A program made the translations under genes and the position numbers. From assembly GCA_025370845.1 (NCBI GenBank), contig JAMXFF010000007.1, positions 88,777-152,776 of the forward strand: a stretch of DNA of 64,000 bases. Reading direction: 5' to 3'. A model generated the notes under the pieces. The model had not been told where the DNA came from. It was given only the letters and a program-made list of their open reading frames with translations, and ran no database searches. Of this stretch, positions 1,552-33,043 are shown piece by piece. Origin of the DNA: Laspinema palackyanum D2a (GTDB lineage: Bacteria; Cyanobacteriota; Cyanobacteriia; Cyanobacteriales; Laspinemataceae). Every line of letters starts with the position of its first letter. Positions within the stretch are counted from its first letter, which is position 1.

Positions 1552-2280
1552 ATGATACCTATTGATGATAATCTCCCCAATCGCTATCCCCCCTTCGCAA
1601 CATACGCCCTGATTGGGTTCAATGTGGCCCTGTTTGTGATGGAACTCAAATTAGAGGCAACGGGCCAACTCGGGGCCTTTTTGCAAAGCTGGGGCGTTGT
1701 CAGCGATCGCATGACTTCGGTTGTCACCGATGCGATCCGCAATCCCAGTCCTGCCGCCTGGGTTGCCTTAATGGTCATGTCTGCCGGTCCCTTACTGTTT
1801 TCGATGTTTCTCCACAGCAGTTTTAGTCAAATTGTGGGGAATATGCTGTTTTTATGGGTGTTTGGCAAGCGAATTGAAGAGATTCTCGGACATGGCCGGT
1901 TTTTCCTGTTTTACCTAGTTTGTGGCATCCTCACCGCGATCGCTCAGGTGGCGATCGCCCCCAATTTAGCAGTCCCCATCGTCGGGGCCAATGGCGCAGT
2001 TTCTGCCATTCTGGGCGCTTATTTCCTGAACTTTCCTAAAGCTAAAATCGAAACCCTCTTACCCTTACTCATCCTGTTTATTCCCATCGAAGTGCCCGCT
2101 TTATTTTATCTAATGTGGTGGTTTATTCAACAGGCATTTTATGGAATTGGTCAACTCACCGTCCTGAAAATGGTCAACCCCACTAGCTTAGGTTATTGGG
2201 CAAATGGAGTCGGATTATTCATCGGGGCCGGATTAGTTTCTCTGTTGGTTAAATATAAACCCAAGACCGCTATTTATTAA
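1552..2280 (+). CDS. Rhomboid-family membrane protein, catalytic residues lost
   Basis: This is a 242-residue polytopic protein. It has the rhomboid layout: an N-terminal membrane segment after PPFATYAL, the FLHSSFSQIVGNMLFLWVFG segment (about 86-105) with its conserved H and GN, then the RFFLFYLVCG helix. Active rhomboids have GxSG in TM4 and a His in TM6. Here TM4 reads GANGAVSAILGAY, with Asn at about 147 in place of the nucleophilic Ser, and the TM6 motif reads WANGVG, with Asn at about 218 instead of His. It is therefore probably an inactive rhomboid pseudoprotease that may bind or chaperone membrane proteins. The fold is well supported; the role is inferred. Confidence 0.85.
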   Translation: MIPIDDNLPNRYPPFATYALIGFNVALFVMELKLEATGQLGAFLQSWGVVSDRMTSVVTDAIRNPSPAAWVALMVMSAGPLLFSMFLHSSFSQIVGNMLFLWVFGKRIEEILGHGRFFLFYLVCGILTAIAQVAIAPNLAVPIVGANGAVSAILGAYFLNFPKAKIETLLPLLILFIPIEVPALFYLMWWFIQQAFYGIGQLTVLKMVNPTSLGYWANGVGLFIGAGLVSLLVKYKPKTAIY

Positions 2281-2401
2281 AAAAAACCGCACATAAGCCG
2301 GGTTGGGCTATACAGAAGAACCCCGCCTGCGCGGTCTAAGATAGAGCAAGGAATTGTAGGGTGGGCAATGTCCCCCCTACTTTTTTAAGAGATAAAACCC
2401 T

Positions 2402-2695
2402 TTAAAAATTTGAAAGTTTATGGCTTTTTAAAGCTTGCTGATTAACAGGTTTCATCTGAAGATTTAACCGGAAATCCGGGCAACCTTCCGCATTTGGACC
2501 CTGGGGATGTACGGCACAGAGTAAGTGGGGATCTCCGGAGTAAAAGTGACAGCGATCGCACTCGCCGAGGTTCCCTGATAAATCCCCTTGTTGGAACTGC
2601 CAAAACTTACCCCGATAGGTTCCGGAAATTTTCCCCGGTGGTGTTTTCACGGGAGGAGTTAAATCATAGCTGACACCACGATAATAAAGTTTCAT
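2402..2695 (-). CDS. DUF4278 domain protein
   Basis: This is a 97-residue protein starting MKLYYRGVSYDLTPP, the N-terminal signature of the cyanobacterial DUF4278 family (LxYRGxxY, then KYRGxxW-like spacing, here TYRGKFWQF). The ATG at 2695 is preferred over an in-frame GTG at 2704 because AGGTGAG lies 5 bases before it. The second half has four cysteines (CDRCHF, LLCAVHP, GCPDF) and could bind a metal. The function of the family is unknown. The gene stands alone on the minus strand. Confidence 0.75.
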   Translation of the reverse strand: MKLYYRGVSYDLTPPVKTPPGKISGTYRGKFWQFQQGDLSGNLGECDRCHFYSGDPHLLCAVHPQGPNAEGCPDFRLNLQMKPVNQQALKSHKLSNF

Positions 2696-2918
2696 TAATC
2701 TCACCTGTTAGCGATCGAGCATTTCATGAGTTCCTAGGCCAATGATTCTTCACCCCAACTCTACCCAATGGTAGATGTCAAAAAAGTGGAATTAAGGTAG
2801 AGTGCCTAAATCTGCAACTCATTTCTTCACCTACTTGATCCTGACATCAGGAAAGCGGCGATCGCACCAATCCTCAGTATGAATTCCAGTCAACTTTTGG
2901 GAAAATTTGCCACCGACT

Positions 2919-2942
2919 CCCCGGATTTCTGAGCATCCGGGG
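2919..2942 (-). terminator. Hairpin downstream of the thioredoxin gene
   Basis: CCCCGGAT at 2919-2926 pairs with ATCCGGGG at 2935-2942 around an 8-base loop, about 60 bases past the stop of the minus-strand gene ending at 3001. There is no clear T-run, so termination is only suggested by position. The rest of 2696-3000 shows nothing else recognisable. Confidence 0.35.
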
Positions 2943-3000
2943 TGCGATCGGTCCGTCTGTGCATTCTCAACCCTGCACACCCCGAATCAACGACTCTCCC

Positions 3001-3822
3001 TCAAAATAGAACCGTCATTAAATTCCGTCGATAAACCGTTGTCAGAGGATGGTCATTTCCTAGTAAGTCAAAAATAGACAGCATTGCTTTTCTTCCCCCA
3101 TCCTGTTTATAACTGCGATCGCTTTCCACAATCGTGAGGAAAATTTGCAATGCCTCCTCATAGTTCCCCGCCACCGTCAAACAAGATGCCTTAGAAAACA
3201 TCTGGTCCAATTCACCCTCTCCTGAAGGATGATTGCATTCCCTCTTAAACTGAAGTAACGCCTTCACTGCTTGCGCTTCTGCGAAAAATTGAGGTTCATC
3301 GGCTTGAATGACCGCTAAAAGTTCCTCAACTTTTCCCAACTCATCCTCACTGATATAGAACTTGGCTGCTTCTAACCGCAACCGTCTATTCTCTGGATAG
3401 TTGGTTAACAAGGATGCAAACATCGCCCCCGCTTTTTTACGATCTTCCCCTAAAAGTACCTGACGAATCGCCTCCAACCCTTCCTCTAAACCCGACTTAA
3501 TATCACAATTTGCCAAAAATTCTCGCAATTGGGGTTCCGGTAATACCCCCACAAACCCATCCAACACTTCCCCATTCCGGATAATTTTCACATCGGGAAC
3601 CCCTTCCACCCGAAATGCTTGTGCTAAATATTGATTTTCATCAATATTCACCTTCGCTACCACACAATCATATTCTTGGGCGACCTTTTCCAACATCGGC
3701 TTTAACATCTGACAAGGACCACACCAAACCGCATAAAAGTCCACGATCGCCGGAATTTCGTAAGACTTTTCTAAGACTTCTTGCTCAAAGTTGTGGTCAT
3801 AGACCTCAATCGAATATCCCAT
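3001..3822 (-). CDS. CnoX/YbbN-like thioredoxin with C-terminal TPR-like domain
   Basis: The 273-residue protein begins MGYSIEVYDHNF and carries a thioredoxin fold with an intact WCGPC active site (Cys34, Cys37). The cis-proline loop GVPDVKII and the FVG segment follow. Residues from about 120 to the end form a helical, TPR-like domain typical of the YbbN/CnoX co-chaperone family. E. coli CnoX lacks the CxxC pair, so this protein may be redox-active as well as holding unfolded proteins; that is inference. The frame extends upstream to 3909, but those 29 residues look non-coding and the ATG at 3822 fits the domain start. Confidence 0.85.
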   Translation of the reverse strand: MGYSIEVYDHNFEQEVLEKSYEIPAIVDFYAVWCGPCQMLKPMLEKVAQEYDCVVAKVNIDENQYLAQAFRVEGVPDVKIIRNGEVLDGFVGVLPEPQLREFLANCDIKSGLEEGLEAIRQVLLGEDRKKAGAMFASLLTNYPENRRLRLEAAKFYISEDELGKVEELLAVIQADEPQFFAEAQAVKALLQFKRECNHPSGEGELDQMFSKASCLTVAGNYEEALQIFLTIVESDRSYKQDGGRKAMLSIFDLLGNDHPLTTVYRRNLMTVLF

Positions 3823-26927: not shown

Positions 26928-27053
26928 TCGTTTTCACCTCCTGATTGGGATGAAGATTAAGAAATTAGAGACATTTGGGAGCCGGAGCATTCATCCCCTG
27001 GGAATATGAGTGGAATCTATGACTCTCACTGCTCCCCTATCCCCGACCCAATC

Positions 27054-27084
27054 AAAAACCCCAGCAGGGTAGCCGGGGTTTTGT
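27054..27084 (-). promoter_or_regulatory. Attenuator-like hairpin in the rplJ leader
   Basis: On the minus strand CCCCGGC and GCTGGGG pair (27059-27078) around a 6-base loop and are followed by TTTTT. It sits about 130 bases before rplJ, in the rplA-rplJ gap. Autoregulation by the L10-L12 complex through this leader is well known in other bacteria. It could also simply terminate the rplA transcript. Confidence 0.75.
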
Positions 27085-27260
27085 CAGTTTCCGATGGCAA
27101 TCTTGTCAACTCATGACAAGACAGCACAAGGGGAACGATAACGCAAACCTAGGTAGGAAATTAAGCCCTGTTGGACACCTACTGTCTCCGGCTACTGTGC
27201 TATTTAATTTTGGGGTTTGAAGGGATGAATTTTGAGTTTCCTCAAAATTTTAACCGGCTT

Positions 27261-30284: not shown

Positions 30285-30432
30285 AGTTATGGTTTTTAAC
30301 TCACAATCTCCCATCATACTGCTCAATCGGCATTTCAGTCTAGCCAATCTCTAAGAGTTTTTTTCCCCCGTCTTTAGCGCGGGTTGTGTCCGAAAATTCT
30401 ACCCTGAGAAACCGGACCCAGCACCATCACGC

Positions 30433-30730
30433 CACCTCCGGTCCCCTCCCCTTGGCAAGGGGAGGGTTAGGGTGGGGTCCTCTTGAAGGGCGATTCCCTA
30501 CGGGATAGCTCCGCTTACCGCGCTTCACTGAAGAAAGAGGTTGGACCAGCCTCCATACAGGTGCTTAAACCTCCTTTGAGTGCGTGAGGTGGCGATCGGC
30601 CAATGAAGAACCTCACCCTAGCCCTCCCCTGTGTCTTGGGGAGGGGACCGGAAGTGGCTCATAGGTGGCGATCGCCTAAGAAGAACCCCACCCTAGCCCT
30701 CCCCTTGCTAAGGGGAGGGGACCGGAGGTG
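30433..30730. mobile_element. MITE-like element with long terminal inverted repeats (copy 1)
   Basis: The left end CACCTCCGGTCCCC followed by CTCCCCTTGGCAAGGGGAG and TTAGGGTGGGGT is mirrored at the right end by ACCCCACCCTAG, CTCCCCTTGCTAAGGGGAG and GGGGACCGGAGGTG. Each end is itself a hairpin. A third, internal copy of the end sequence lies at about 30603-30650. There is no coding capacity. A related element is at 50508-50885 and shares the interior word ATTCCCTAC with TAGCTCCGC. Confidence 0.75.
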
Positions 30731-31119
30731 CAGTTAAGGGTAACCAACCCTTGTAAGTCCCTGCCATTGTCCGCATTTCGGCCCTTCCCATCTGCTCTGA
30801 CTGGAGTCCTACTTCTCCCGAGAGAGCTTTAAGGCTCTGAAAAGCCGAAAAAATGCAAAAAAAGGAGATAACCCAGTGTTATCTAACCCTAAAGGCAGAA
30901 ATTAGCTAAAAAAACTCAATTTCCAGATTTCAGCCCTGGAATTTTAATGCTAGAGTAGAGTGAAAATGTTGTCTTCTCAAGAGAGGTTGCATAACAACGT
31001 TGAAACTCTTTGCTCTAACTGGCTACCCTTGGCGTGGCCTCTGGTATCTGGATATGCAGTTGAAGCGTAAACGGCATTGCGACCCTGCGCTGTCCTGGAC
31101 TGATCGATGTGAAGCGCCT

Positions 31120-31500
31120 AGTATGGTCCGATCGGCCTGTTAGATAAGGTTTGCGCTCGGTACTGCTGAAGCTTCTTGTAAGCTGCTGTTAAGACCCTAA
31201 GTCTTGAGGGGTCCGCAAACTAGGTCGATCGGGGTTATAGACCCACAAAATTTTGACAAGGAGACGGCGTTCCGATAACCGTCTCTAAACAAGCTGGATT
31301 TCTCCGGCCCTAGCTCTATCAAAAAGGGAGTGGATTCCTGACAGAGAAACTCGCATCAGATGAACGAAACATCTGTCAGGTCCACTCATTAAGCATCATG
31401 CTTGCGGGATAGAGCGTCCGGTTGAGATCTCCAGCTACTGCCTAGGGATGAGGTGGGTTCCCCAGAACCTGACTCAATCCTTCACCTCCGGCAGCGATGT
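31120..31500 (+). ncRNA. Candidate structured RNA, leader of the deoxyhypusine-synthase-like gene
   Basis: Four helical domains can be drawn by eye. (1) CCGATCG 31128-31134 with CGATCGG 31226-31232, inside it GTTTGCG 31149-31155 with CGCAAAC 31214-31220, and inside that two hairpins (AGCTT/AAGCT 31170-31184; GACCC/GGGTC 31193-31213). (2) GAGACGG/CCGTCTC 31261-31285. (3) CTGGA 31294 with TCCAG 31430, CTCTATC 31314-31320 with GATAGAG 31408-31414, and a 16-bp helix 31328-31387 with one 2-base bulge. (4) CTGCC 31438 with GGCAG 31490-31494, then GAGGTG/CACCTC and GGTTC/GAACC. It ends about 100 bases before the gene at 31602. It lacks RNase P, tmRNA and SRP RNA signature words. It may be an independent RNA or a cis-regulatory leader. 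Confidence 0.55.
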
Positions 31501-31601
31501 CAATTAACTTGAATATTCATGATTGAACATAGTCAATCGCCTTAGTTGCTTAGTCTGCTAAGGCCACTATGCCCTGTATTTCAACCGTTTGGAGTGGAAA
31601 A

Positions 31602-32789
31602 ATGTCTCAAATGATAGATCGCAAAATTGCCCCCGCCCCCATGACCGAGAACGTGAGCGTCGTGGACTTAATTGATGGTTACTTCACCGCTTATAATTCC
31701 GCTCGGTTGCGGGAAGTCTGTCACCTGCTGACGAAAAAGGTGATGCGGGACGGGGTGACTGTGGGACTGAGCCTATCTGGGGCCATGACTCCGGCGGGAT
31801 TCGGGGTATCAGCTTTAGCACCGCTGATCCGTAACGGCTTTATTGATTACATCATCAGTACCGGCGCAAATCTGTATCATGATATCCATTACGGACTGGG
31901 ATTAAACCTCTATGCGGGAAATCCGTTCGTGGATGATATCAAACTGCGGGAAGAAGGCCATATCCGCATCTATGACATCATTTTTGATTACGATGTGTTG
32001 TTGGAAACTGATGCGTTTATTCGGACCATTTTGCGCGCAGAACCCTTTCAGAAGCGGATGGGAACGGCAGAATTTCATTATCTGCTGGGCAAATATGTCC
32101 GGGAAATTGAGAAGCAACGCGGAGTAGAGCATTCCTGCTTGCTGGCAACGGCGTATGAGTGCGGAGTGCCGATTTATACCTCGTCCCCGGGAGATAGCTC
32201 GATCGGGATGAATGTGGCGGCGCTTGCGTTAGAAGGGTCGGAATTAATCATTGATCCGGCGATCGATGTCAACGAAACAGCAGCGATCGCTTATGCTGCC
32301 CGGGACCCCAACAAAGACTTCCCCGGAGAAAGTGCCGCCTTCATTCTCGGTGGTGGTTCTCCGAAAAACTTCCTCCTGCAAACCCAACCCCAAATTCACG
32401 AGGTCCTGGGTTTGGAAGAACGGGGACATGACTATTTCATCCAAATTACCGATGCCCGTCCCGATACCGGCGGTTTATCTGGGGCCACCCCCGCTGAAGC
32501 GGTAAGCTGGGGCAAAGTCGATCCCAATGAACTGCCCAATACCGTGGTTTGCTACACCGACAGCACGATCGCCCTGCCGATTCTCACCGCTTATGTGATG
32601 AATCAGTGTCCCCCACGTTCCCTCAAGCGACTGTACGATCGCCGCCAGGAAATGCTGACCAAACTGCAATTAGACTACCAATTGGCGCAAGCGAAAAAAT
32701 CCGAACGCACCGCCCCCCCCGTTTCTGAAAGACCCGAACCTGTTGCCACTTATCCCTGTGGTACGCCCATCCGGAACGGGCGTGGTTAG
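31602..32789 (+). CDS. Deoxyhypusine-synthase-like protein
   Basis: 395 residues from the ATG at 31602 ([13 protein letters not shown]), which has GGAG 7 bases upstream. It has the NAD-binding DHS features [14 protein letters not shown] and [16 protein letters not shown], a middle [30 protein letters not shown], and [21 protein letters not shown]. Eukaryotic DHS moves the aminobutyl group of spermidine to a Lys of eIF5A; bacteria lack that target, and bacterial relatives include homospermidine synthases. A polyamine role is therefore likely but the substrate is uncertain. The long folded region upstream may regulate it. Confidence 0.88.
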
Positions 32790-32850: not shown

Positions 32851-32895
32851 TATTGCCCGGTTTTATTTTCATCAACATCCAGGGTAGATTTTGAC

Positions 32896-33043
32896 GGCAA
32901 ATACAACAGTCTGCTTACGGTTTGCCCCCCTGATTGGAACCCGAGATTTTCCTATCCTAGAGTCATGGTCAAACCGGCAGGAAGATTTAAAACTTTTCGC
33001 CCATCGGCGGCAAATACAACAGTCTTCTTACGGTTTACCCCCT
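32896..33043. repeat. Two direct repeats of about 35 bp upstream of hsp20
   Basis: Copies at 32896-32930 and 33009-33043 share GGCAAATACAACAGTCT, one variable base, CTTACGGTTT and a C-run. Starts are 113 bases apart. In the first copy GGCAAA and TTTGCC form a short inverted repeat. They lie within the 465-base gap before hsp20; the remainder of that gap shows no gene. Confidence 0.75.

Follow-up and report, generated by a model that had tools for sequence, protein, structure and literature searches.

Control of a polyamine gene by a short reading frame in its own messenger has been described in Salmonella, where speF is preceded by orf34, a leader of 34 codons with an AUG start whose start site lies 516 nt before speF, and where formation of a 'downstream of stop' hairpin is governed by whether a ribosome occupies the stop codon (PMC6386406, in excerpt). 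Its product, SpeFL, is described as an L-ornithine-sensing arrest peptide that inhibits release by RF1, and the same source presents TnaC-type leaders, in which a short peptide responds to a small molecule within the exit tunnel and brings about stalling at its own stop codon (PMC8429421, in excerpt). For cyanobacteria, the excerpted part of a 2016 survey states that there were no reliable data on attenuation (PMC4833913). Our search of the open-licence literature – in which subscription journals are largely absent – returned no leader peptide before a cyanobacterial deoxyhypusine synthase (DHS) or speD gene. In eukaryotes, which have scanning ribosomes, conserved short peptides encoded by upstream open reading frames (uORFs) are linked to polyamine genes, as for AdoMetDC and antizyme.

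Here, we describe a leader of this kind in Laspinema palackyanum D2a, within a window – the whole stretch of DNA that was analysed – of 64,000 nucleotides. On balance, we consider it probable that positions 31000–31500 form the 5′ leader of a DHS/homospermidine-synthesis mRNA and exert cis-acting control of polyamine synthesis through a peptide and a hairpin; the anatomy itself, a leader peptide with a hairpin (H1) at its stop codon, is close to certain. Its likeness to orf34/SpeFL is one of layout. Both have a short reading frame with Arg codons in the long 5′ leader of a polyamine-biosynthesis gene on the same strand (here before DHS homologues at 136 of 140 loci) and a hairpin at or behind the stop codon (here H1, which our model did not find at 20 of the 140 loci). 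The Salmonella leader starts with AUG and has 34 codons, whereas ours has a TTG start and 47 codons and belongs to another gene in another phylum; moreover, Rho and RNase G take part in the Salmonella system, whereas no protein of the window's genome scores over the cut-off for Rho. TnaC-type leaders differ in peptide, ligand and gene, and stalling at the present leader is hypothetical. The polyamine-responsive uORFs of eukaryotes likewise join a conserved short peptide to a polyamine gene, and we know of no stop-codon hairpin of the H1 type in them.

The original prediction for this locus was of a large structured RNA of nested helical domains at 31120–31500, free of coding frames, lying before a deoxyhypusine-synthase-like gene and acting either as a polyamine-sensing leader or as an independent RNA; comparison with Rfam and a covariation analysis were proposed as checks. 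The region is indeed structured, its + strand folding far beyond chance (-148.8 kcal/mol, z -5.84, a level that none of 100 dinucleotide shuffles attains); for the reverse complement z is -3.09, again unequalled in 100 shuffles. The gene was also correctly recognised, as a DHS homologue begins at 31602, about 100 bases 3′ of the region. No Rfam family reaches its gathering score within 31120–31500, which rules out a known Rfam RNA; with E values up to 10, only two unrelated eukaryotic families appear near the region (E 3.7 and 6.9). Across the whole window, Rfam 15 at gathering scores recovers only two tRNAs and a ribosomal protein L10 leader, all outside 31120–31500, the last at 27044–27209 on the - strand (49.1 bits, gathering score 44). 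The supposed absence of a coding frame did not hold: the first 24 bases (31120–31143) are the 3′ end of a conserved reading frame at 31000–31143, and the best-conserved part of the locus starts about 120 bases 5′ of the predicted region. A DNA search with 30900–31600 hit 15 of 59 genomes, counting that of the window; the whole query is covered within the genus, and outside it only about 30980–31154, a strip lying 5′ of, and overlapping, the start of 31120–31500. When translated, this strip has a single open frame in relatives, within which synonymous changes occur.

The leader reading frame (31000–31143, + strand) comprises 47 codons from a TTG start to a UAG stop at 31141–31143 and encodes MKLFALTGYPWRGLWYLDMQLKRKRHCDPALSWTDRCEAPSMVRSAC, with TTG written as M; in-frame ATG codons also occur at 31054 and 31123. 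The frame is kept in 65 distinct loci encoding 58 distinct peptides, a set obtained from 81 loci by dropping 15 with identical leader DNA and then L038, a degenerate copy; L039 and L040 (E 0.003 and 0.007, with no DHS or speD by tblastn) had been excluded before the 81-locus set was formed. The degenerate copy, in a genome (G008) of the window's own family, lies before a DHS gene and is perhaps a decaying leader. Over a core of 27 codons, W.L...L.R.R..DPALSW.DRCE(A/G)PS, the 65 loci have mean pS 0.74 and mean pN 0.16; for the 734 of 2080 pairs whose pS is under 0.7, dN/dS has a median of 0.075. The three codon positions have entropies of 0.52/0.39/1.26, and the other two frames are interrupted by stops in 56 and 60 of the 65 loci. 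The leader frame is under selection at the protein level. Its start is presumptive, being assigned by position, with extra in-frame starts upstream in some loci and an internal ATG in many; the codon at that position is mostly a weak start, since 157 distinct loci have TTG in 132 cases, GTG in 16, ATG in seven and none of these in two, and the 65-locus set has TTG in 59 and GTG in four. Among the peptides scanned, none matches a family of Pfam, NCBIfam or PHROG, and neither viral contigs nor phages nor PHROGs yielded a relative of the peptide. The leader is carried by four named plasmid records, which list no gene under the peptide, in a PLSDB gene table that is incomplete. Of 140 loci, 139 encode the Pro-Ser pair (31117–31122 in the window) as CCN-AGT, despite there being six Ser codons. 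An alternative pairing of this near-invariant CCN-AGU with ACUNGG in the 3′ arm of H1 is unsupported, with 51 of 85 able to pair, so the codon choice stays unexplained.

The hairpin H1 (31129–31231, + strand) has a lower helix of 31129–31138 with 31222–31231 and an upper helix of 31148–31155 with 31214–31221. The stop codon of most lineages is a UGA that opens the lower helix as its first triplet; the window's lineage reads through this arm of the lower helix (codons CGA UCG GCC UGU), and its UAG lies in a 9-nt bulge at 31139–31147. Across lineages the bulge is mostly 9–11 nt long and conserved in sequence. In an alignment of 41 loci (A5), 10 of the 17 pairs are changed on both sides versus 5.3 in shuffles, and 98.1% of cells are paired versus 90.9%, neither value being attained in any of 500 shuffles; slid controls reach at most 44% paired and four pairs, a comparison that favours H1 because its structure was derived from A5 itself, with sequence ends chosen by complementarity. 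Counted over 58 loci with 49 distinct arm pairs, the nine pairs of the lower helix are 99.5% canonical in registers picked for complementarity, as against 8–52% in slid registers and 92% (maximum 94%) when 3′ arms are swapped between loci, swapped arms still pairing so well because the arms are conserved. Seven loci were left out of this count, L031, L032, L033, L034 and L041 having another hairpin and L011 and L012 a short one; a different or shorter hairpin at the stop is found in some lineages. A search for a helix at the stop gave a score of at least 20 in 134 of 140 loci, versus 49 of 420 shuffles. H1 is thus a covarying RNA helix at the stop codon of the peptide. A covariance model (R1) matches the window at 31120–31235 with E 2.4e-17, the window sequence being one of the model's own rows.

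Peptide and hairpin occur together. Among 378 genomes of the class, presumably Cyanobacteriia, the peptide profile (A6, limit E 0.001) has 140 matches in 138 genomes and in 65 of 157 genera, the weakest accepted match having E 2.1e-11. In 378 genomes of that class the H1 covariance model has 120 strong matches (E at most 6.8e-9), separated by a gap from 11 weak ones elsewhere (E 0.0035 to 0.099). All 120 strong matches adjoin a peptide match, with an offset of at most 8 bases; because the model was trained on peptide-selected loci and includes a few coding bases, this figure is partly built in, and its informative part is that these genomes hold no strong H1 match elsewhere. At the remaining 20 of the 140 peptide matches, H1 is not matched strongly. 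Such a distribution speaks against a riboswitch in which the H1 bulge (UGUAACUUA type) would bind polyamine directly and the reading frame would be secondary, a very remote prospect despite the bulge's length of mostly 9–11 nt and conserved sequence, since H1 is nowhere strongly matched away from the frame, the frame does occur without a strong H1 match, and in the window's lineage the ribosome would cover the bulge that holds its stop codon. Two genomes carry two leaders each, and in one of them (G217) each leader precedes a different class of DHS. A further scan of contigs confirmed 44 loci, whose record titles are without exception cyanobacterial. In a sample of 386 genomes of the phylum, all 21 with the peptide (E up to 1e-4) have a DHS gene, compared with 84 of the 386 overall. 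DHS can do without the leader peptide, as seen in one family (f33), where the peptide is absent at E 1e-4 from 36 of 38 DHS-bearing genomes. Genomes with DHS of class A have the peptide in none of six outside the window's class and in all seven inside it.

The gene preceded by the leader in the window (31602–32789, + strand) encodes a DHS homologue of the homospermidine-biosynthesis type, matching Pfam DS (E 3.5e-70) and NCBIfam NF001980, homospermidine biosynthesis protein (579 bits, cut-off 450). Behind this gene lies a 35-nt direct repeat, 94% identical, at 32895–32929 and 33008–33042. The gene after the 140 peptide matches is a DHS of class B, the window's class, in 91 cases and of class A in 45, always on the same strand. 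Three of the remaining four (L165, L177, L231) are at contig ends, where the sequence stops 260–555 nt from the leader, and one (L248) lies before unrelated sequence, a sulfoacetaldehyde-acetyltransferase-like gene on the opposite strand in a contig that is perhaps chimeric. The constant same-strand place before DHS disfavours the independent RNA of the original prediction, and we rejected an independent non-coding or mobile RNA on this ground and because a search of the window's genome with 30880–31600 finds just one match. The polyamine-sensing leader put forward as the other option fared better in one respect, the leader being tied to polyamine genes, though not as an RNA without coding. 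Estimated spacing between leader and DHS ranges from 60 to 931 nt, with medians of 308 nt for class A and 411 nt for class B.

The two classes of DHS are 31–35% identical where aligned. The class-A protein of Nostoc edaphicum, the one member of its class that we scanned, matches NF002699, 1,9-bis(guanidino)-5-aza-nonane synthase (590.8 bits, cut-off 500). We take this enzyme to be of the agmatine-coupling type that a 2024 report, in excerpt, links to homospermidine synthesis in Thermus (PMC10981699). With NF001980 naming class B and the agmatine-coupling type NF002699 naming class A, the NCBIfam names point to homospermidine-type products for both classes. At one extra locus (L017, also numbered L085, Oscillatoria sp. 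SIO1A7), the only one of its type found, the leader is followed by speD (TIGR03330, 142.8 bits, cut-off 75.65) and then speE (NF002010, 266.1 bits, cut-off 260). Four Nostocales plasmids have the order rocD or (ornithine) aminotransferase gene, leader, DHS. On plasmid A of the laboratory cyanobacterium Trichormus (Anabaena) variabilis ATCC 29413 (NC_007410.1) the first gene of this order is rocD, the peptide match lies at 185720–185854, and the hairpin at the stop differs in type from H1. At L032 (G368) the leader is followed, at the place expected for DHS, by a gene that is transposase-like by translation (1869–3089), and the upstream ornithine aminotransferase gene (22–1408) is split over two frames in the assembly. 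The window's genome has no match to speD, and its DHS homologue may therefore be its triamine route. Homospermidine synthesis is reportedly essential for normal diazotrophic growth of Anabaena, according to the title of Burnat et al. 2018, and the DHS homologue of Anabaena presumably makes homospermidine.

Immediately behind H1, on the + strand, is a small hairpin followed by a U-tract (31232–31254), with GGGUUAUAGACCC at 31232–31244, then ACAAAAUUUU, the U-tract itself occupying 31251–31254. Of 132 distinct loci, 67% have a run of four T in the 30 nt that directly follow H1, and 17–36% have one in the next seven bins of 30 nt; weighted by 20 peptide clusters, the values are 0.67 versus 0.19–0.29. 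Support for the small hairpin is weak (mean z -0.63, se 0.26, 20 clusters; -0.29 for the next segment). A small hairpin of the UUCUC..GAGAA kind follows H1 in 49 of 134 loci by a loose pattern, and the window has another kind. Canonical terminator-like hairpins follow H1 in 54 of 134 loci versus 25% of shuffles. A scan of 30700–31620 for sigma-70 promoters and terminators found no promoter and no terminator on the + strand; its single terminator-like site, on the - strand, does not exceed background. A GC-rich palindromic repeat (CCCTCCCCTTGGCAAGGGGAGGG type), REP-like and intergenic, occurs three times between an rplS-like gene and the leader (30424–30739), with one copy in inverted order relative to the others. 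The best candidates for Rho in the window's genome, the one genome searched for it, score 24.1 and 22.7 bits, where the cut-off is 509.45. A ribosome standing on the stop codon, or some 20 codons before it, might have exposed or hidden the DHS ribosome-binding site; sequestration of this kind was rejected as a candidate output, as no systematic effect appears over 134 loci: with the ribosome's footprint blocked at the stop, predicted openness of the site at DHS starts picked by our own Shine-Dalgarno rule shifts by more than 0.1 in 17 loci, eight up and nine down.

The remainder of the region (31250–31500, + strand) holds further stable domains, comprising a hairpin at about 31260–31286, a long arm at about 31292–31436 and a hairpin at about 31438–31494, and folded alone it has z -6.22. 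Among the 59 genomes it has no match outside the genus, BLAST matches there covering only the reading frame and the start of H1. In an alignment of eight sequences from the genus, the whole structure of 123 pairs has two changed on both sides versus 2.1 in shuffles, both in the long 3′ arm; its mean column identity of 95% leaves the covariation test with little power. Of the nested domains originally proposed, then, the first (31129–31231) has covariation across families, and the others have none above shuffles; the covariation check accordingly came out in favour of H1 and, at low power, not of the 3′ domains. Matches confined to the genus, together with covariation no greater than in shuffles in these eight sequences of little power, led us to reject 31250–31500 as a conserved RNA. 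The counterpart stretch in other lineages has mild structure at most, with z between 0.08 and -2.87 in 19 of 22 representatives; the window's copy has -4.72, and two were too short. We treat 31250–31500 as a lineage-specific extension of the leader.

We have good confidence that the leader controls DHS in cis. A ribosome finishing the peptide would cover the stop codon and melt the lower helix of H1, and H1 would form when the ribosome does not reach the stop or has already gone. The nascent peptide, or its Arg/Lys run, could tie the ribosome's dwell time to the supply of polyamine, ornithine, agmatine or arginine, and completion or retention of the DHS message would depend on H1 and the U-tract behind it, the formation of H1 altering termination or decay near the U-tract. 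As to whether the ribosome senses a polyamine or a precursor in this way, we hold the balance to be even. The most likely output step would be intrinsic termination, or cleavage by an RNase, close to the U-tract: termination or cleavage is favoured by the presence of this tract behind H1, and either is preferred over Rho because no Rho was recognised in the window's genome.

A classical amino-acid attenuator would also employ the ribosome on the leader: a shortage of charged tRNA-Arg would make the ribosome pause at LKRKR, the Arg/Lys run, and DHS would thereby track arginine, the source of agmatine and putrescine. Arg is found at one site of the core in 63 of 65 loci and at another in 53, and at these two sites CGG makes up 44% of Arg codons versus 27% in the DHS genes of the same loci, and CGA 13% versus 8% (203 and 2616 codons, with kinship of the loci ignored). 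The Salmonella speF leader, too, has two consecutive Arg codons (PMC6386406, in excerpt). Yet many residues other than Arg (W, L, DP, S, D, CE, PS) are conserved as strongly as Arg, unlike those of codon-run leaders, and no more than two or three Arg codons are clustered, which makes an attenuator of this type unlikely.

The reading frame might instead encode a small protein acting in trans, for example as a DHS subunit or regulator, with H1 merely a stabilising hairpin near its stop. Low dN/dS across the whole core and an almost constant gene neighbourhood would suit such a protein. We nevertheless judge it improbable: the same peptide precedes two classes of DHS that share only about a third of their residues and, once, speD, which does not belong to DHS; the start is TTG or GTG in 148 of 157 loci; a covarying hairpin is linked with the stop codon; and the spacing to DHS exceeds the need of a plain operon. 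Control in cis by peptide and hairpin is the reading that we retain.

The element is real and widespread and probably acts in cis, is described in no family library that we used, and constitutes a new family of leader peptides that has a stop-codon hairpin of its own. Its kind is known – a leader peptide before a polyamine gene – and what is new, as far as searched, is the family, the phylum, the genes and the probable Rho-free output. More tentatively, and somewhat short of an even chance, a single family of arrest peptides with a stop-codon hairpin may gate triamine synthesis without Rho, the ribosome itself being the polyamine sensor, before three kinds of gene (two DHS-type classes and speD-speE); it may date to early Cyanobacteria, since the leader is common to lineages that have only one or the other class of DHS. 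Such a leader would offer a widespread example in which peptide, RNA hairpin and metabolic target are all defined, and the adjustment of homospermidine in cyanobacteria would become directly testable. If the origin in early Cyanobacteria is true, the leader would be among the oldest arrest-peptide switches known.
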